Assembly: GCA_017853385.1 (NCBI GenBank)
Contig: JAFMJR010000006.1
Span: forward strand, 1 to 48,447
Direction: 5' to 3'
DNA length: 48,447 nucleotides
Source of the DNA: Ilumatobacteraceae bacterium
Lineage (GTDB): Bacteria > Actinomycetota > Acidimicrobiia > Acidimicrobiales > Ilumatobacteraceae
The notes below the pieces were generated by a model. The model worked only from the letters and a program-made list of their open reading frames with translations. It was not told where the DNA came from and ran no database searches. Position numbers and translations under genes: made by a program. Below are positions 3,369-45,420 of this stretch, in pieces; within the stretch, counting starts at the first letter, position 1; each line of letters opens with the position of its first letter.

Positions 3369-4475
3369 GTGAAACGAACTGGGTTACTTGCGTGCTTCAT
3401 AGCGTTATCTGCATGCGGCACAAGTGAAAACGTTCTTCCCAACACAACTATTAATGAAGATGTTTCAATCAGCATGGCATTTGTCGGTGACGTGCTTGCT
3501 CACAGCCCAATAGTCACTCAGGCTCAACGCAATGCGTTGAAAACAGGAGCAAGCGAATATGACTTCTCACCCATGTTTGCTGATATCAAGCCACTCATTG
3601 CTTCGGCTGATCTTGCTATCTGTCATTTAGAGACTCCAATTGCGCCGCCTGGTGAACCGTTGTCAACATTTCCCAAGTTTGGTGTTCCCCCCGAGATCAC
3701 GAATGCATTGGCCGACACAGGATTTGATCGATGCAGCACTGCAAGCAACCACACATACGACAGAGGCGTAGCGGGAATTGACACGACTGTGAATGCACTT
3801 GAAGCAAACGGCATCAAACAGTCAGGAATGGCACGAACCCCTAATGAAATAGAACCATCAGTATTTGAAATTCATGGCATGTCCATTAGCCATCTCAGTT
3901 ACACATTTAGCTACAACGGTCTCTCGCTTCCTGATGACCAACAATGGCGATCAGCGCTAATTGATACCGAACGCATTCTTCGTGATGCAAAGACCGCACG
4001 AAAACGTGGTGCTGAAGTCGTCATTGTCAGCATGCACTGGGGAAATGAAATGTCACATCAGTTGAATTCACAGCAAATATCAGTTGCTGATGCTCTCACT
4101 AAATCGGGCGACATTGATTTGATCATTGGACATCATGCCCACGTTGTGCAACCCATTGAACAAGTGAACGGCGTATGGGTGATTTACGGAATGGGCAATG
4201 TTCTTTCCAACCTGCCTACCGATGAACGGTGGCCTGCGAGCAGCCAAGATGCAGGTGTGTTTACCACCACCCTGCATCGGGATTCCGATGGAACCATTTC
4301 TTTTGATGCTCCTGTCGTGCACCCAACCTGGGTTGACAAAGAACATGGCTGGATAATTCGTGACATTGCAAAGTCGCTCGCAGATGCAACTCAAATGAAA
4401 ATTAATACGCAAGAACTCGAGTTGTCACTAGGGAGGACAACTCGAGTTCTTGGCGACTTCATCACAAAACAGTGA
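3369..4475 (+). CDS. CapA family protein (metallophosphatase-like, poly-gamma-glutamate synthesis-type)
   Basis: AFVGDVLAHSP, ADLAICHLETPIAP, SNHTYDRG, VVIVSMHWGNE, DLIIGHHAHVVQP motifs; lipoprotein-like N-terminus (ALSACGT). Confidence 0.88.
   Translation: MKRTGLLACFIALSACGTSENVLPNTTINEDVSISMAFVGDVLAHSPIVTQAQRNALKTGASEYDFSPMFADIKPLIASADLAICHLETPIAPPGEPLSTFPKFGVPPEITNALADTGFDRCSTASNHTYDRGVAGIDTTVNALEANGIKQSGMARTPNEIEPSVFEIHGMSISHLSYTFSYNGLSLPDDQQWRSALIDTERILRDAKTARKRGAEVVIVSMHWGNEMSHQLNSQQISVADALTKSGDIDLIIGHHAHVVQPIEQVNGVWVIYGMGNVLSNLPTDERWPASSQDAGVFTTTLHRDSDGTISFDAPVVHPTWVDKEHGWIIRDIAKSLADATQMKINTQELELSLGRTTRVLGDFITKQ
4410..4452. repeat. Perfect 17-bp inverted repeat with 9-nt loop inside the 3' end of the capA-like CDS
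   Basis: caagaactcgagttgtc (4410-4426) / gacaactcgagttcttg (4436-4452); each arm contains the palindrome AACTCGAGTT. Confidence 0.9.
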
Positions 4476-4488
4476 GTGATTTCACCGC

Positions 4489-5865
4489 TTATTTGTGTGA
4501 GCCTTGAAATTCTGGGTACGCAAGTACGCCCATCTCTGGCAAATCGAGACCAGCAATTTCGTCCTCTGCCTTTGAACGAATACCGCCCTTGGTGAACTTG
4601 TTTTGAATGTTGAAGAACGCGTACGACATTGCGCCACACACCACCACGATGGTGACTGCACCTAGTGCTTGCGCACCTAGTTGACCCCAGTCGCCTTTGA
4701 TGATGCCCTTTACGCCTTCACTCGTCGAACCATTCCAACCAGCACCGTATGTTCCATTGGCAAACACACCAACGCTGAGTAGACCAAACAAACCACCCAC
4801 TCCGTGGACAGAAATTGCTCCAACTGGATCATCGATGCCGCGGCGCTCAAAGAAATACACCGCTTCAATAATGAGTACTGCTGCGATGGAACCGATTACT
4901 GCCGATGCCCACGGGTCAATGAATGCGCACGGCGCAGTAATTGCAACAAGTCCGGCAAGCATTCCATTCACCATCATTCCTGGGTCTGGCTTTCCCGTTT
5001 TACGAGTGATGTACAACATTGCGACTACCGAACCAAAGGCTCCTGCAATTGCAGTATTTGTTGCGGCTACAGCAAACTGCACGTCGGTCGCAGCAAATGT
5101 GCTTGCTGCATTAAACCCGAACCAACCGAACAACAAGATGAAAGTTCCAAGCATTGCCATTGGTACGTGATGCCCAGCAATTGTTCGTGGCTTACCATCG
5201 GCACCATATTTGCCGATGCGCGGTCCAAGCACGATTGCTCCAGTAAATGCAGCAACACCACCCACTGCGTGCACAACACCAGAGCCGGCGAAGTCAACAT
5301 AACCGGCACCAAGCGACATTGAGCTCCAGGTCTTTGCTAACCAACCGCCACCCCATGTCCATGCAGCAATCACTGGGTAGTAAATCGCGCCGCAGAAAAA
5401 GCCCCAACCCACGAAGCTGCTCCACTTCCAACGTTCTGCCATCGAACCGGTTGGAATCGTCGCAACCGTGTCCATAAACGCAACCATGTACAAAAAGAAT
5501 CCAACTGCCGCTGGCGTTATTGCATCTCCAGTGAGAGCCCAACCGCCTTTCCAGAAAAAGATCCAATCACCGCTACCAAGAAGAGCGCTTCCCACTGGCG
5601 CATCCATCCCAAATGCTGAATAACTAAATCCACCAAATGAAAACGAAAATCCAACGAGATAAAAACCGATGAACCCCAAACCAAAAATGGCAAAGTTGGT
5701 GCTCACCACGTGTGCAGCATTTTTAGCTTGAGTGAATCCTGTTTCAACAAGTGCAAAACCAGCCTGCATAAACACCACCAATGCGGCACCAATCACAATC
5801 CATAACAGACTGACTTGTTGGCCCAGCACGGTTACCGGATCGGCAACGTCGGCAAGAAATTTCAT
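4489..5865 (-). CDS. amt: Ammonium transporter (Amt family)
   Basis: Typical Amt sequence (FALVETGFTQAKNAAHV, AWTWGGGWLAK, DFAGSGVVHAVGG, SVHGVGGLFGLL); start placed at MKFLADV (5865), preceded by an AAGGAG-like RBS. Confidence 0.95.
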   Translation of the reverse strand: MKFLADVADPVTVLGQQVSLLWIVIGAALVVFMQAGFALVETGFTQAKNAAHVVSTNFAIFGLGFIGFYLVGFSFSFGGFSYSAFGMDAPVGSALLGSGDWIFFWKGGWALTGDAITPAAVGFFLYMVAFMDTVATIPTGSMAERWKWSSFVGWGFFCGAIYYPVIAAWTWGGGWLAKTWSSMSLGAGYVDFAGSGVVHAVGGVAAFTGAIVLGPRIGKYGADGKPRTIAGHHVPMAMLGTFILLFGWFGFNAASTFAATDVQFAVAATNTAIAGAFGSVVAMLYITRKTGKPDPGMMVNGMLAGLVAITAPCAFIDPWASAVIGSIAAVLIIEAVYFFERRGIDDPVGAISVHGVGGLFGLLSVGVFANGTYGAGWNGSTSEGVKGIIKGDWGQLGAQALGAVTIVVVCGAMSYAFFNIQNKFTKGGIRSKAEDEIAGLDLPEMGVLAYPEFQGSHK

Positions 5866-6010
5866 ATCGCGCTCCTTAGAAAATGGTTGAAAGACATTTG
5901 ATGACTGAAATGTCAGGGGCGACGCTGCAACCAGACGTGGCAAAAACTAAACCACTCATGTTTCGGCATTGTCTACGAATTGTTTCGTAAGCGTTATTCT
6001 TTGACCCGTT

Positions 6011-6499
6011 ATGGCCACAAAACGCGCTCAGGCGAAACACCCAGTTAACAAACTGGAGTTACCTCCTCTTGTGGCCGAGCGAATTTCATGCTCATTGTCA
6101 AAATGGGTGGGCGAAATTGGCAAATGCCATTGGTGCAACGAAGTCATCACTGGCAAGCGCCGGCGCACCTGGTGTTCAGATGCTTGTGGCCGTGCCTGGC
6201 AACGTGAACACATTTGGAGATTTGCTCGATCTGCCGCAAAACGACGGGCGAAATATCGGTGTACAAAACCTGGCTGTACTGCAGAGCGACGAGATTGCGA
6301 AGTGAACCACATTCGCGCATTAAATGGTCTTGGCTATGGCCCTGGATGTCACCACCATTCCAAACCAGATGCCAACGGTGAAGGCGGACTTGAAGTGTTG
6401 TGTCGGGCGCACCATGCAGAAATTACTGCTGCGCAAGCAACAGCCAGAGCGGCTGCACGTCGCGAAGCAAAGGAAGCATCAAAAGAAACTACGCTCTGA
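6011..6499 (+). CDS. HNH endonuclease domain protein with N-terminal Cys-pair zinc-binding motif
   Basis: CHWCNE-x-WCSDAC plus CEVNHIRALNG...LEVLCRAHHAEIT HNH signature. Confidence 0.72.
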   Translation: MATKRAQAKHPVNKLELPPLVAERISCSLSKWVGEIGKCHWCNEVITGKRRRTWCSDACGRAWQREHIWRFARSAAKRRAKYRCTKPGCTAERRDCEVNHIRALNGLGYGPGCHHHSKPDANGEGGLEVLCRAHHAEITAAQATARAAARREAKEASKETTL

Positions 6500-6502
6500 C
6501 GA

Positions 6503-6979
6503 ATGGCGTTTCGTGATGGCGACGGTTGGGTGATGTGCTCATGTGGGCATCGCCATTGGGGGCTTCACGGTGCTGCGGGACTACTACTTGTCCGTCGCGA
6601 TTTAGACGAACCTCGTGTGCTGTTGCAGTTACGCGCGGCGTGGACTCATGGTGGAGGCACTTGGGCGTTGCCAGGTGGCGCGCTCGATAGTCACGAAGAT
6701 TCAGTGAGTGCCGCTGCTCGCGAAGCAGAAGAAGAGGCAGGAATTAGTGCTGCCGATATTTCGGTGCGCGACGTATTTAGCGACGACCACGGCCCTTGGC
6801 GATACGACACAGTTATTGCTCATACCTCGACCGATGCAGGAGCTCATGCAGCCAATGCCGAGTCTGAAGACCTTCGTTGGGTACTCATTGACGAGGTCGC
6901 TGATTACCAATTGCACAAAGGTCTCGAGGCAGCCTGGCCGGCACTTCGACTGCGAGTACTTGCCACGTTGACTGCCTAG
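6503..6979 (+). CDS. NUDIX hydrolase
   Basis: NUDIX box GGALDSHEDSVSAAAREAEEEAGI; N-terminal CSCGHRHWGLHGAAGLLL motif. Confidence 0.9.
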   Translation: MAFRDGDGWVMCSCGHRHWGLHGAAGLLLVRRDLDEPRVLLQLRAAWTHGGGTWALPGGALDSHEDSVSAAAREAEEEAGISAADISVRDVFSDDHGPWRYDTVIAHTSTDAGAHAANAESEDLRWVLIDEVADYQLHKGLEAAWPALRLRVLATLTA

Positions 6980-7032
6980 GTCATTCGCCCCTTACTTATT
7001 TCACCCTCGGGCCACTCGTTAGGCTCTGATAT

Positions 7033-8382
7033 ATGACAATCGATCCAACCACCACACCTGGCTTTATCAACGACCGTAAGCACGTCTTCCATTCGTGGTC
7101 GGCGCAGGGAACGCTCAATCCTGTTGAGATCGTGAGTGGTAAGGGTTCGTATTTCACTGATGCTTCTGGCAAAAAGTATCTCGACTTTTCAAGCCAACTC
7201 GTCAACCTAAATCTTGGTCATCAACACCCAAAACTAATTGCAGCAATCCAAGAACAGGCTGCACGTCTGTGCACCATTGCCCCAGCTTTCGCTAACGATG
7301 CACGCAGCGAAGCAGCTCGATTGATTTCAGAACTCGCACCTGGCGATTTGAACATGGTGTTCTTCACCAACGGTGGTGCCGAAGCTGCAGAAAACGCAGT
7401 GCGCATGAGCAAGTTGCACACTGGTCGTCACAAGATTTTGACGATGTACCGTTCGTACCACGGCTCAACTGCCGGAGCGATTGCGCTCACCGGTGACCCA
7501 CGTCGTTGGCCAAATGAGACCGGTGCGTCTGGTGCAGTGAAGTTCTGGGGACCTTACGCATATCGCTCGGCTTTCCACTCGTCAAACGAAGCAGAAGAAT
7601 GCCAACGCGCATTGCAGCACCTTGAAGATGTGTTGATGGTTGAAGGACCACATACCGTTGCCATGATCGGACTTGAAACTGTTGTTGGAACGAACGGAAT
7701 TTTGGTTCCACCTGCCGGATATTTGCAAGGTGTTCGCGATCTATGCGATCGCTACGGCATTGTCATGATGTGCGACGAAGTAATGGCCGGTTTCGGTCGT
7801 TGCGGAGAATGGTTTGCGGTAAACAAGTGGGGCGTAACTCCAGACTTGATTTGCTTCGCAAAGGGTGTGAACTCCGGATATGTTCCATTGGGCGGCGTAA
7901 TCATCAGCCAGAAAATTGCTGACACATTTAAAGATCGCGTGTATCCAGGTGGTCTCACCTACAGCGGCCACCCACTTGCGTGTGCTGCAGCAGTTGCATC
8001 AATCAACATTTTCAAAGAAGAAAAGACAGTTGAAAACGCACGCATGCTTGGCGAAACCGTAATTGGTCCAGAACTTGAAAAACTGAAGGCGAAGCATCCA
8101 TCAGTTGGAGATGTTCGAGGCATCGGTGTGTTCTGGGCGATTGAGCTTGTTCGCAACCGCGAAACACGCAAGCCACTCGTACCGTTTAATGCCGCTGGAG
8201 CAGACGCAAAGCCAATGCTCGATTTCGCTGCAGAGTGTAAGAAGCGTGGCCTATGGCCATTTACTCACTTCAACCGCACCCACGTTGTTCCTCCTTGCAA
8301 CGCTTCGCCTGACGAAGTGCGTGAAGGTATTGCAATCATTGACGAAGCGTTGACGATTGCAGACTCGTTCTACGAAGGCTGA
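7033..8382 (+). CDS. Class III PLP-dependent aminotransferase
   Basis: FFTNGGAEAAENAVRMSK, CDEVMAGFGRCGEWFA, ICFAKGVNSGYVPLGG (PLP lysine), TYSGHPLACAAA. Confidence 0.92.
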   Translation: MTIDPTTTPGFINDRKHVFHSWSAQGTLNPVEIVSGKGSYFTDASGKKYLDFSSQLVNLNLGHQHPKLIAAIQEQAARLCTIAPAFANDARSEAARLISELAPGDLNMVFFTNGGAEAAENAVRMSKLHTGRHKILTMYRSYHGSTAGAIALTGDPRRWPNETGASGAVKFWGPYAYRSAFHSSNEAEECQRALQHLEDVLMVEGPHTVAMIGLETVVGTNGILVPPAGYLQGVRDLCDRYGIVMMCDEVMAGFGRCGEWFAVNKWGVTPDLICFAKGVNSGYVPLGGVIISQKIADTFKDRVYPGGLTYSGHPLACAAAVASINIFKEEKTVENARMLGETVIGPELEKLKAKHPSVGDVRGIGVFWAIELVRNRETRKPLVPFNAAGADAKPMLDFAAECKKRGLWPFTHFNRTHVVPPCNASPDEVREGIAIIDEALTIADSFYEG

Positions 8383-26779: not shown

Positions 26780-26790
26780 CAATGTGAGTA

Positions 26791-26914
26791 CTTCTTGCAG
26801 GGTTGGGTGAAATCCCCTACCGGCGGTGAAAGCCCGCGACCCCCACGAGCAATCGTGGGGCTGATCTGGTGAAATTCCAGAGCCGACGGTCATAGTCCGG
26901 ATGGGAGCAGGAAG
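26791..26914 (+). ncRNA. FMN riboswitch (RFN element)
   Basis: Conserved blocks GGGTGAAATCCCCTACCGGCGGTGAAAGCCCGCGA and CTGATCTGGTGAAATTCCAGAGCCGACGGTCATAGTCCGGATGGGAGCAGGAAGG; P1 cttcttgc/gcaggaag; variable stem ccccacga-gcaa-tcgtgggg; directly upstream of ribD. Confidence 0.97.
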
Positions 26915-27042
26915 GCAAAGGTTGCGCTTGCGTTTGCACGAACCGCTTTTTGCGGTCTGTTTGCACATGCCGGTGTGTCCCGTGCCGTCTTCGCTCTGCC
27001 CTACCTGTGGTTCGCACTGCGCAACAACAAAGGGCAACTTCA

Positions 27043-40305: not shown

Positions 40306-40671
40306 CTACTCCGCCGCAACAACGGCAACAGCAACTGTTTCTGTGTGAGAAATCGAAACTTGCCACGAGGTCACGCCCTTGCTCTTGGCAAGTTGCTCTG
40401 CCCTGCCAGTGACCCGCAAGGTTGGCTGCCCAGACGAAAGTTTGGCAACCGAAACATCGTGAAGATCAAAAGCTCCAAGCCCAACCCCCAATGCCTTCAT
40501 CGCGGCTTCACGCACTGCGAACCGTGCGGCAAGGCTGGAAACCTGATCCGCTTTTGCACTCAACGACTGCAGTTCATCGTGCGTAAATAGTCGACTGCGC
40601 AAACTTGGCGTCCGTTCTAGAGCAGCACGAAACCGACTTATATCAACGGCGTCAATGCCGAGACCACGCAT
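40306..40671 (-). CDS. acpS: Holo-[acyl-carrier-protein] synthase
   Basis: MRGLGIDAVDISRFR, LAARFAVREAAMKALGVG, SISHTETVAVAVV. Confidence 0.93.
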   Translation of the reverse strand: MRGLGIDAVDISRFRAALERTPSLRSRLFTHDELQSLSAKADQVSSLAARFAVREAAMKALGVGLGAFDLHDVSVAKLSSGQPTLRVTGRAEQLAKSKGVTSWQVSISHTETVAVAVVAAE

Positions 40672-40673
40672 TG

Positions 40674-43600
40674 CTACGACCCGTTTTGGGTAGTGCGCCA
40701 GTGGTTTGCCGACTCACTAATGGGCAAAATCAGTAAATCGGCAACTGAAACCTCTGCCAGGCGATCTTCGCGGAACGAGCCTTCGGTTTCCGTTACCCAG
40801 TCAACAAGTCGGTTGTATCGATCGTCGTATCCCTGCAACACATTTTTCATTGTTGCGGCAGGAAGTCGATCGTGGAAAAGCACATGAAGCAACGTGATGC
40901 CCGTGGTCTCTGACCCTTTTGTTTCGGGAACAAAAATCACTGTTCGATTATCTCGCCGACCTCGCGCAACCAACACATTGCGATCTGTTGCAACGCGGTG
41001 CTTGGTGCCCACCAATGTGGAGTTGCGATCTACGCGCGAAGTAAGTTCACGCGAAATTCCGCCGCGATCAATCACGTTGACAGTTGCAGTATTTCCTTCA
41101 ACATCACCTTCAATCGCATAACGAGTGAACCCGACCACAGATGCAACCGCAGAGTCAAGATCGGCAATTACTTTCAGAGCTTTGTACGACAGTCGATCTC
41201 GTGAAACACCGGCTTTCAATACTTCTTGCACGAGTGCTCGATCAAGCAGACCTTCATCACTGCGAGAAATTCCTACGGTCACCGTCTTGGCCTGGTGCTT
41301 AATTGCATCTACAGGTCGGGTGAGTTCATCAATTGCACGAGTGAGAGCACTTGTTAGATCGTCAAGCAAAGCCTCTGGCGAACTGATCTTGCCTGTACTG
41401 ATCTGAAACGCTTGCAATGGATCTGACGCCATCGCGTCACGAAGCATGGTGACAACTCGTACTGCCGTACTTGCTTCAAGATTTCCGTCGTACATTCCAG
41501 TGGTGAGGGCATCAAAGAATCGTGTTGCTGGAACTCCAATTTCAGATCGCACCTTTGATAGCAGCTGGCTACCAACGCCACCGCGCTCAACTGCATGCTC
41601 GACAACTTCTCGAGCAGATCGCAATGGGCGTGCAAGTGAGTCAATTGCCAGTGCAGCCTCATATCCAAACAAGTGACCGACCATGACGCTCAGGATGAAT
41701 GCAACACGTGGATCAACACGTGGAACTGAAATCACTGCAGCTGCAGCATCAAATCTCTGTTCGCCTTCCTGGGCAATAACTATTGGCAACGCTTTGTGCG
41801 CGCGATAAATGGCAATTTCTTTCGCAACGTCAGAAGCGGTGCCATCAGATAAGCCCGTCGCACAGACAATGATCATTGGCTCACACGACAAGTCGATGTG
41901 TTTTTTATCTTCAGTGATGTCACAAGCAATGGACTTGTAACACAATTCAGAAAGCTTGATTCGCACTTCTTCGGCAGCAACAGCGTTGAAACCATTGCCC
42001 ACCACTGTCCAGTAGCGGCGTGCCGGAGCGAATTGTCGCGCAGCCTCGGCGATCTGAGGTCGCAGGGCCAATACCTGGAACATGGCATCGGGAATGGTGC
42101 GTAATGCAAGCAGTAATTGGTGCCGATCTTCGGCCGAACCACTGCCTAACGATGCAGAAATTGCGCATGCGAGCAACGCTCCAGCAGCCACCTGCGAATA
42201 AAACGCCTTGGTGCTAGCAACACTCATTTCAACATCTCGCCCGTCAGATGTGAACAACACACCATCTGCTTTGGCCGACAATTCACTTCCTCGTCGATTC
42301 ACAATGGCAAGCACCGAAGCTCCACGAGTGCGCGCAAGGTCAACTGTGCGGTTGGTGTCGGTTGTGGTTCCACTTTGACTGATTGCAATGATCAATGTGT
42401 CGGTCATGTCAAGCTGCAATTGAAAACCAGACAATTCCGTTGCCGGCAAAGCATCTACTTGCACACGATGGTCAACCATTTGTCGCAACAACTGAGCCAA
42501 GCTGCGGCCTGCAATAGCTGCTGTGCCTTGGCCAATTACGCGAATGCGAGTGAACACTCCCGATGCAAGTTTTTGGCGAATGTCATCAGGCAACACTGTT
42601 GCATCGAGTGTCGCTTCAAGTTGTCCATTGCGCTCGGAGATTTTCCCACGCAATGTTTTGCGAAAACTCAGTGGCGCCTCTGCAATTTCCTTTGACAAAA
42701 AGTGCTTGTGCTCTCCTCGGTCAATGTCGCGAGTGGTGACTTCAGCCGTTGCTATGTGTTGTTCACCTAGTTCGAGGTTTGTGCCGTCATAGGCAAGCAA
42801 CTTCATTCCAGCAATTGATCCTGCAGAGTCTCCTTCAAGCACAATGACCTGACCGCGGCTAGAGGGATTATTTGCATCTGCGAGAACTTCCCCGTCCATT
42901 CGCACATAGTGCAAAGTTTCTTCAACAACCCCGTATGGTTCGCTCGCAACAATGAAACGATCTTCTGCGATTCCCACGTACAAACCCTGACCGCTGCCAC
43001 GCAATGCAAGCATCATCGTGTTTGGTTCATCGGCATTTGCAACTGCGATAGCAACACTGCCTTCAAACTCTGCAACTGTCTCTCTAAATGCGTCTGTGAA
43101 CGACAGTCCTGCAGCGTGTTTGCGGGCAACAACTGTTGGTATCACCTTGGCATCGGTGGTGATCGGGTCTGCAATGTGTAGACCATTGCGAACTTTGATG
43201 TCCGCGTGATTGTCTACGTCACCATTGAGTGCCGCAAGCATGTACGGAGCCGCTGCGTTGCCGCCAACTTCTTCGCTATTGACGGGGTGAGCATTGGGCT
43301 CTGAAATGATTCCGACACTTGCCCATCTGGTGTGACCAAGGATGGACACGCGTGCGTTTGGTTGACTCACCAGCAAGCGAAGCAGCGCATCTGATGCAAC
43401 TGCTGCGCGCATTGCACGAGTGTTGTCACCCAACTCGCCAATCTCGGCTGCTGCTTTATACACAAATGACCAAGCCCGGTTTCCTGCACCAACCCGTACC
43501 GAGCCATTGGTAAACAATGCATCGTCGAGGCGCCCTGCAAGCAGTGGAGCAACTCGCTTATCGGTTGCATCCAATCCATGGCCCCACACCAACACGTGCA

Positions 43601-44099
43601 CGCCAGCAGAATCTCGGCCGCGTACTTCCATGCGGTCGAGTGCAGAAAAAGCTTGCTGGATTGAAAAGTACGCATTCCGTGCGCTTGCACTTGCATCTTT
43701 TCCGGCAAGTTCACCAACCGCTTTTGCTGTTCGCAATCGATCGTTGCGTAGCGACCAGGTTGCATCGCGAAGCGCAATCAATTCATTGCTGCGACGCTCA
43801 ACTTCGCGAGTTGACAGTCCCGATTCAGACTCCAACTGGGCTTCGGCATCTGAGGCCAACGCATCCAATTGATCAACACGAGAAATCAATCCACTCACCA
43901 AGGCGATGTTGTCGATCAAGGTTCCTAAACCAGCTTCGCCACGAAGTGCAATGTCGGCCTGCGCCACCAATCGTCCCGCTTCAGCAACATTGCCTTGAGT
44001 AGCTATAGCAATCGCTCGGTCTAGAGCATCAAGAATGTCGGCAGCCAGTGGCAAGGGTCTTGCCGATGGCCGCGACACAACGCAGATGATGCCGCACAT
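40674..44099 (-). CDS. Giant GlmS-like glutamine amidotransferase/SIS-domain protein (1141 aa)
   Basis: Start MCGI (catalytic Cys2), VRGRDSAG, GHTRWASVG..NAHPV, LNGDVDNHADI, then SIS motifs HFLSKEIAEAPLSFRKTLRG, ISQSGTTTDTNRTV, EMSVASTKAF; extra segments relative to canonical GlmS. Confidence 0.9.
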   Translation of the reverse strand: MCGIICVVSRPSARPLPLAADILDALDRAIAIATQGNVAEAGRLVAQADIALRGEAGLGTLIDNIALVSGLISRVDQLDALASDAEAQLESESGLSTREVERRSNELIALRDATWSLRNDRLRTAKAVGELAGKDASASARNAYFSIQQAFSALDRMEVRGRDSAGVHVLVWGHGLDATDKRVAPLLAGRLDDALFTNGSVRVGAGNRAWSFVYKAAAEIGELGDNTRAMRAAVASDALLRLLVSQPNARVSILGHTRWASVGIISEPNAHPVNSEEVGGNAAAPYMLAALNGDVDNHADIKVRNGLHIADPITTDAKVIPTVVARKHAAGLSFTDAFRETVAEFEGSVAIAVANADEPNTMMLALRGSGQGLYVGIAEDRFIVASEPYGVVEETLHYVRMDGEVLADANNPSSRGQVIVLEGDSAGSIAGMKLLAYDGTNLELGEQHIATAEVTTRDIDRGEHKHFLSKEIAEAPLSFRKTLRGKISERNGQLEATLDATVLPDDIRQKLASGVFTRIRVIGQGTAAIAGRSLAQLLRQMVDHRVQVDALPATELSGFQLQLDMTDTLIIAISQSGTTTDTNRTVDLARTRGASVLAIVNRRGSELSAKADGVLFTSDGRDVEMSVASTKAFYSQVAAGALLACAISASLGSGSAEDRHQLLLALRTIPDAMFQVLALRPQIAEAARQFAPARRYWTVVGNGFNAVAAEEVRIKLSELCYKSIACDITEDKKHIDLSCEPMIIVCATGLSDGTASDVAKEIAIYRAHKALPIVIAQEGEQRFDAAAAVISVPRVDPRVAFILSVMVGHLFGYEAALAIDSLARPLRSAREVVEHAVERGGVGSQLLSKVRSEIGVPATRFFDALTTGMYDGNLEASTAVRVVTMLRDAMASDPLQAFQISTGKISSPEALLDDLTSALTRAIDELTRPVDAIKHQAKTVTVGISRSDEGLLDRALVQEVLKAGVSRDRLSYKALKVIADLDSAVASVVGFTRYAIEGDVEGNTATVNVIDRGGISRELTSRVDRNSTLVGTKHRVATDRNVLVARGRRDNRTVIFVPETKGSETTGITLLHVLFHDRLPAATMKNVLQGYDDRYNRLVDWVTETEGSFREDRLAEVSVADLLILPISESANHWRTTQNGS

Positions 44100-44109
44100 G
44101 GGTTATAGG

Positions 44110-45420
44110 TTACCGAACCCCGCCAAAGCGCTGGGACGCTGCCTCAGCAAGCCCTGCGGCAATGGATTCTGCGGTCTCCTCCGTTGCTGCTTCAACCATC
44201 ACGCGAATTACGGGTTCTGTGCCACTCGCACGCAATAACACTCTTCCCACTCCGCCGAGACGCACATTTGCTTGAGCGATTTCAGCAGCCAAATCTGAAG
44301 CTGGGTCTGCAACAACATTGGCAACACGAACGTTGATCAGCGTTTGAGGAAGCGAGGTCATTGCGTTACGCGCAAGAGTTGCAAGTGGTTTTGCTTCTCG
44401 ACGCACAAGGTCTACAAGCATTGCCCCCGCAAGCAAACCATCTCCAGTTGTTGCGTGGTCACGATAAATAATGTGACCACTTTGTTCGCCACCAAGCGCA
44501 ATGTCATGTTCATCAAATGCAACCAAAATATTTCGATCACCTACGGCTGTTGTCACAACATTGATTCCATGTAGTTGCATTGCAGCGTGGAATCCTGCAT
44601 TTGTCATTACCGTCACCGCAACAGCATTTGACTTCAACTTGCCGCGTTTGTGCATGTCGATTGCTGCAAGTGCAATCAAATGATCGCCATCAACTACATC
44701 GCCAACGTGATCAACCGCAATCACGCGGTCACCGTCACCATCAAATGCAAGTCCGAGATCTGCTTTGTGTAAACGTACTGCTTCACTCACTAATTCAGGA
44801 TGGGTGGCTCCGCACTTCTCATTAATGTTCTTGCCGTTTGGTTCATCATTCATCACAATGACCGTTGCTCCAAGTCGCGCAAATGCAAGTGGCGCCACCT
44901 CGCTCATCGCGCCGTTGGCGCAATCAAGCACGATGCGAATGCCAGAAAATGCAAGCACGGGAAACAGCCCAACGATGTGCGACACATATTCATCGAGCAG
45001 TTGCACCGGTTCAGGTGATGCAGCTTGAACCAATGCATTTCCGGTCATATGCGATTCGATGGCGTCTTGTTGGGCATCACTCAGCTTCAATCCCCCATTG
45101 GCAAACAGCTTTACTCCGTTATCTGCAAATGGGTTATGAGATGCAGTGATTGCTGCACTTGCGCAACCGCGCTTTGCTGCAAGAAACGCAATCGCTGGCG
45201 TAGGAGCAACTCCAAGCAACTCAACCGACACTCCACCGGCGAGCAATCCGTTTGCTAACGCTGCTTCTAATCGCGGTCCTGATTCGCGTGTGTCACGCCC
45301 AATAAGCACCTTTTTAACACCAAGTTGTTGGGCAGCAACAAGCCCAAGTTCTGCAACATAGTTTTCGGTAAGTTCGGTGAAGGCAACTCCACGAACACCG
45401 TCGGTGCCAAATCGAAGCAT
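44110..45420 (-). CDS. glmM: Phosphoglucosamine mutase
   Basis: MLRFGTDGVRGVA, AAITASHNPFADNGVKLF, GLAFDGDGDRVIAVD, RASGTEPVIRVMVEA. Confidence 0.96.
   Translation of the reverse strand: MLRFGTDGVRGVAFTELTENYVAELGLVAAQQLGVKKVLIGRDTRESGPRLEAALANGLLAGGVSVELLGVAPTPAIAFLAAKRGCASAAITASHNPFADNGVKLFANGGLKLSDAQQDAIESHMTGNALVQAASPEPVQLLDEYVSHIVGLFPVLAFSGIRIVLDCANGAMSEVAPLAFARLGATVIVMNDEPNGKNINEKCGATHPELVSEAVRLHKADLGLAFDGDGDRVIAVDHVGDVVDGDHLIALAAIDMHKRGKLKSNAVAVTVMTNAGFHAAMQLHGINVVTTAVGDRNILVAFDEHDIALGGEQSGHIIYRDHATTGDGLLAGAMLVDLVRREAKPLATLARNAMTSLPQTLINVRVANVVADPASDLAAEIAQANVRLGGVGRVLLRASGTEPVIRVMVEAATEETAESIAAGLAEAASQRFGGVR

Follow-up and report, generated by a model that had tools for sequence, protein, structure and literature searches.

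Entry into cell-wall sugar synthesis is guarded by GlmS, an essential enzyme that is also a drug target. E. coli GlmS (PDB 2J6H and 1JXA) and human GFAT-1 (PDB 6R4E) combine an Ntn glutaminase with two SIS domains, an architecture common to the protein described here. Closing of the active site is believed to depend on a freely moving C-tail. Elsewhere, this step is controlled by the glmS ribozyme, by the small RNAs GlmY and GlmZ, by GlmR/YvcK and through inhibition of GFAT by UDP-GlcNAc. In E. coli the C-tail is restricted by an Arg331-Glu608 salt bridge, and tags at the ends of GFAT are reported to interfere with catalysis (PMC8041777); a C-terminal His-tag on human GFAT2 is reported to have little effect (PMC7948480).

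We analysed a stretch of 48,447 nucleotides from an Ilumatobacteraceae bacterium (contig JAFMJR010000006.1; "the window") which carries a GlmS-like gene of 1141 codons. Unlike GlmS and GFAT, its product (the long form) has a 129-aa insert after MCGI, an enlarged glutaminase loop, about 107 aa ahead of the C-tail and an extra domain, some 190 aa long, behind it. In literature searches of partial coverage we found no relevant paper on GlmS in Acidimicrobiia or Acidimicrobiales or on a GlmS-GAF fusion, and no characterised homologue of about 1100 aa, whose existence the initial annotation had said would remove the novelty.

A long GlmS homologue next to glmM

The initial annotation described an ORF beginning with MCGI between acpS and glmM, with glutaminase signatures (RGRDSAG, GHTRWASVG, NAHP, LNGDVDNH), two SIS domains and nearly twice the canonical length. 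We find the same: the frame opens with ATG, the signatures are all in place, and the NCBIfam glmS models and the E. coli and human GFAT sequences align over residues 239-818, covering both SIS domains. The locus is organised as follows.

40306-40671, minus strand: acpS, directly downstream of the long-form gene (synteny)
40674-44099, minus strand: long-form GlmS, whole gene, 1141 aa (ORF, NCBIfam and PDB matches, homologues, fold match)
44110-45420, minus strand: glmM, 10 bases upstream of the long-form gene; its product uses GlcN-6-P (synteny)

Above the Pfam cut-offs the protein matches GATase_6 and one SIS domain, and a sequence search of the PDB gave E. coli GlmS and human GFAT. Against TIGR01135 (NCBIfam, residues 239-818) it scores 233.7 bits, far under the equivalog cut-off of 418, and all of the long forms listed in the order likewise fall below that cut-off. 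Annotation would therefore miss or misname the long form: the curated model would call such genomes glmS-negative although the step is probably present. Core identity between long form and canonical GlmS is 24-34% (mean 30%), compared with 40-49% between E. coli GlmS and canonical actinobacterial GlmS, and in the tree the long forms sit on a very long branch relative to canonical GlmS.

A low family score could also be read as the mark of a catalytically dead or purely regulatory homologue, or of an assembly or frame artefact. We consider this extremely improbable, given some 80 full-length homologues (967-1172 aa) with the same layout in independent assemblies, their invariant catalytic residues and the lack of any other GlmS in the genome; the homologues also establish that the length of 1141 aa is not an artefact.

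In the window we found no glmS ribozyme. Separately, an FMN riboswitch (RF00050, 116 bits) lies at window positions 26789-26916 on the plus strand, upstream of ribD-, ribBA- and ribH-like genes.

The long form takes the place of canonical GlmS

The genome search that the initial annotation had proposed turned up no second, canonical glmS in the same genome (1.5 Mb, 90% complete), which has no GlmS-like gene other than the one for the 1141-aa protein. We sampled 118 genomes of the order: the long form is present in 72, canonical GlmS in 44 (over the cut-off in 43, on fragments in one), neither in two and both in none. The same exclusion holds across the class, where 98 of 247 genomes have the extension, 130 have canonical GlmS over the cut-off and none has both. 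Families f72, f99 and f102 each hold both types, with different genomes carrying one or the other. Both forms occupy, in whole or in part, the slot rplM-rpsI-glmM-[glmS]-acpS-alr (canonical at L143, L144, L171 and L173; long at L132, L140, L141, L175 and L177), so that the operon position of the long form is that of canonical glmS in related genomes. In G035, a genome 98% complete and of the same genus as G085 (see below), neither form was detected.

In the phylum, the extension was found in 31 of 397 genomes, nine of them outside the class. Long forms make up a clade with SH-aLRT support of 100 in the phylogeny, which was likewise among the proposed checks; the tree does not fix the root of this clade relative to canonical GlmS. 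Because the outside-class members in the tree nest within the long clade of the class (SH-aLRT 96 for a group of 14 rows to which they belong), their placement points to horizontal transfer of the long form into other actinobacterial classes. There too it usually replaces canonical GlmS, as eight of the nine outside-class genomes lack canonical GlmS over the cut-off. The ninth, G159, has a long and a canonical GlmS (G159:C313 and G159:C155) and is the only genome seen with both; it is a MAG with 5% contamination, and a stray contig is possible. Our profile searches covered Actinomycetota and a peptide-pattern scan covered other phyla, so the range of the long form may be wider. Hits of that scan were Acidimicrobiia-like, and a few MAG titles among them (Bifidobacterium breve, Acidobacteria) look mislabelled.

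That an essential gene has been replaced several times over is our strongest evidence that the long form and canonical GlmS have the same function. The initial annotation had also entertained a paralogue with different substrates, an idea we reject because the two forms never coexist in the order and class samples; the shared slot, the invariant catalytic residues and the conserved C-tail lysine disfavour it further. Put more broadly, the protein could be an amidotransferase-isomerase acting on another sugar phosphate, with GlcN-6-P coming from salvage or from a reversed NagB-type deaminase. Deep divergence and changes at the contacts His77, Ser303 and Glu351 (see below) would suit such an enzyme, but it would have to be reconciled with the exclusion of canonical GlmS, its replacement in other classes, the adjoining glmM and the invariance of Lys603, Lys485, Glu488 and His504, and we judge it improbable. 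MurA is present in the same genome and thus the amino sugar is needed. A search there for a deaminase that could supply GlcN-6-P by running in reverse found none: NagB was rejected as such a source since the sole PF01182 match is a 6-phosphogluconolactonase.

GlmU over the cut-off (TIGR01173) was not found in this 90%-complete assembly, a point that counts against the GlmS reading; of the weak matches to the model that were inspected, three resemble, by eye, RmlA-, GDP-mannose- and GalU-type nucleotidyltransferases. Either GlmU is missing from the assembly or it too has been replaced by something unusual.

The catalytic core is conserved

Alignment to E. coli GlmS divides the core of the long form into the following segments.

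44067-44099, minus strand: first strand of the glutaminase, bearing the N-terminal nucleophile Cys2, residues 1-11 (MCGI invariant)
42735-43679, minus strand: Ntn glutaminase core, residues 141-455 (alignment to E. coli GlmS)
43365-43583, minus strand: enlarged glutaminase loop with a conserved K.A.EIGELGDNT motif, residues 173-245 (alignment)
41640-42734, minus strand: two SIS domains, isomerase, residues 456-820 (Pfam, NCBIfam, alignment, fold match)

Residue conservation was measured in 33 diverse long forms and is given in E. coli GlmS numbering. The N-terminal Cys nucleophile (E. coli Cys1, here Cys2 after Met) is invariant (33/33), as are the glutamine-site residues Arg73, Trp74, Asn98, Gly99 and Asp123 (here Arg258, Trp259, Asn292, Gly293 and Asp316) together with His86. 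In the SIS domains, which contain the motifs SQSGTT and VASTKAF, all 33 long forms keep Thr302, Ser347-Gln348-Ser349-Gly350, Thr352, Val399 and Ser401. The isomerase residues Glu481, Lys485, Glu488 and His504 (here Glu711, Lys715, Glu718 and His734) are identical throughout, and so is Lys503. The second-SIS segment cited in the initial annotation was quoted correctly and its histidine is indeed conserved; the accompanying remark that neighbouring residues diverge understates the conservation, because these five residues are kept in every long form. Four contacts in the neighbourhood of the active site are changed: Thr76 to Ser, His77 to Val or Ile (Val in the difference from E. coli GlmS), Ser303 to Ala and Glu351 to Thr. 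Neither a canonical glmS elsewhere in the genome nor loss of the sugar-phosphate residues, the pair of observations that the initial annotation held would speak against a replacement, was found.

An AlphaFold2 model of the full protein built from 28 sequences (pLDDT 84, pTM 0.72), a further check that had been suggested, keeps the GlmS fold, and its best PDB fold matches are GFAT/GlmS (E 5e-26), spanning both SIS domains. The catalytic loops and the segment 937-950 have low pLDDT, so the model gives no position for the tail. Taken as a claim of its own, apart from any sensing, it is very probable that the 1141-aa protein is a GlcN-6-P synthase.

The canonical C-tail lies inside the chain

Canonical GlmS ends in ..VD(Q/K)PRNLAK(S/T)VTVE. 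Full-length alignment, unprompted, places this tail gap-free on VDAIKHQAKTVTVG at residues 930-943 of the long form, where it is followed by about 200 aa and is not the end of the protein as it is in canonical GlmS. The initial annotation had missed this feature.

41262-41318, minus strand: internal C-tail, residues 928-946 (RPVDAIKHQAKTVTVGISR), with Lys938 equivalent to E. coli Lys603 (alignment, profile, conservation)

The segment 928-946 is the most conserved of the protein, with a mean column identity of 0.96 and 15 of 19 columns invariant, and is present in all sequences of the first set. Ala602-Lys603-Ser/Thr604-Val605-Thr606-Val607 is kept in 40 of 40 long forms as AKT(V/I)TV, with one Val605Ile. 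Glu608 is Gly in all 40 and Arg331 is not kept; both partners of the E. coli salt bridge are thus changed and the long form is without it. In each of the seven long forms shown, this site is the top match of a canonical-tail profile, with a lead of 19 to 31 bits over the second-best site. The score of the window protein was equalled by 5 of 2000 shuffles, and the case for the tail therefore draws also on its invariance and its position. We rejected the idea that the C-tail lysine had been lost: a first alignment, made without the extension, had put Arg830 at Lys603, whereas the full protein aligns the tail without gaps. With the tail at 930-943, it follows that an insertion of about 107 aa separates it from SIS2 and an addition of about 190 aa follows it.

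One long form, that of G085 (L170, around 4352-7517), stops at ..RPIDAIRHQAKTVTVGISRR, directly after the C-tail motif, and about 20 bases beyond the stop the following gene starts, which by eye is NnrD-like. No remnant of the last domain was found downstream and no acpS was found at the locus. If this is not an assembly fault, G085 would have lost the predicted sensor cleanly, which puts its tail back at the end of the protein. Since the frame ends right after the tail and the next gene follows, the last domain appears to be separable.

Added segments and a predicted sensor domain

Three further segments set the long form apart.

43680-44066, minus strand: helical insert, residues 12-140 (129 aa), separating the first strand of the glutaminase fold from its first helix (alignment, model)
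41319-41639, minus strand: helical segment, residues 821-927 (about 107 aa), from SIS2 to the C-tail (alignment, models)
40698-41261, minus strand: predicted PAS/GAF-like sensor domain, residues 947-1134, after the C-tail (models, fold matches)

The N-terminal insert is modelled by AlphaFold2 as five helices (19-132) before the first canonical helix, with pLDDT mostly over 90. Its mean conservation is 0.48, and no convincing PDB match was found beyond a weak coiled-coil resemblance. Its length varies, being shortened in the long forms of 1075-1085 aa at L087, L091 and L093.

Towards the C-terminus, AlphaFold2 predicts a helical segment at 843-935 and an a/b domain at 955-1134, the latter with the order b-b-a-b-b-b and flanking helices. 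Modelled alone, the C-terminal 300 aa reached pLDDT 88, and the best fold match was L-GDH180 of M. smegmatis (PDB 7JSR; E 4e-4), a nitrogen-metabolism enzyme whose large fused PAS-type/ACT-like modules are proposed metabolic sensors (PMC8175468). This similarity is at the level of the fold; L-GDH180 has a different catalytic core and carries its sensors N-terminally. The last domain also matches the GAF domain of an Acinetobacter phosphoenolpyruvate-protein phosphotransferase (PDB 3CI6) with probability 0.96-0.97 and E 0.02-0.06, in flexible alignments with rmsd up to 21 A and a low whole-model TM of 0.25 by query and 0.40-0.42 by target. With moderate confidence, the models suggest that the last domain is PAS/GAF-like.

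No PAS/GAF or other sequence family matched the extension above threshold. DUF7124, a sub-threshold match in 4 of 29 members (best E 0.0099), was not used. Nothing convincing for the extension was found in the PDB sequence search and nothing in a viral fold library; no stand-alone copies were found on plasmids or viral contigs, and genomic matches lie in frames that fit the long form or its contig-cut fragments.

As its first option the initial annotation had offered a GlmS remodelled to carry regulatory domains of its own. Remodelling is borne out by the sole gene, the mutual exclusion, the synteny and the residues; "regulatory" is a deduction from the predicted fold, by which the fused control modules are somewhat more apt than not to sense a ligand. 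The added domains of a GlcN-6-P synthase might instead help it to oligomerise or to dock with a partner such as GlmM. Dimers are common among PAS/GAF-like and coiled helical modules, the N-terminal insert is helical with its weak coiled-coil likeness, and the glmM neighbourhood is constant in many genomes. Several outside-class long forms, however, keep the domain without an adjacent glmM in the stretch read. Some of the residues that never vary in the last domain (G990, R993, Y994, K1033, D1050, R1052, P1058 and E1059) are polar, which also weighs against docking; neither point is decisive. We regard oligomerisation or docking as rather unlikely. The likely reading of the whole is a GlcN-6-P synthase whose mobile tail is under the control of a fused sensor.

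Proposed mechanism

Because the long form replaces canonical GlmS, we infer that it produces GlcN-6-P from Fru-6-P and glutamine. Cys2 would hydrolyse glutamine and the ammonia would travel on to the isomerase site of the SIS domains for the isomerisation and amination of Fru-6-P. The internal C-tail (930-943, with Lys938) would close the sugar site and line the channel for ammonia, the part played in E. coli by the C-tail with Lys603. Here, though, the tail would be held at both ends, by the helical segment leading from SIS2 and by the PAS/GAF-like domain directly behind. A small molecule, most plausibly a product of the pathway, for example UDP-GlcNAc, or a nitrogen or carbon signal, may bind the last domain, and binding may shift the tail and so switch the coupling of glutaminase and isomerase.

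We tentatively propose, giving it slightly less than an even chance, that the mobile catalytic C-tail is now trapped, with a helical arm on one side of it and a ligand-sensing domain on the other, such that a metabolite gates the ammonia channel and sugar site, and that this arrangement replaces control of GlmS by RNA or partner proteins in a large part of the class. The controls described elsewhere act on the same point, the first amino sugar step; in the long form, the fused domains would carry that control. The presence of about 190 residues behind the tail in a large set of Acidimicrobiia suggests that the tail is able to work inside the chain, which would offer a direct route of regulation.
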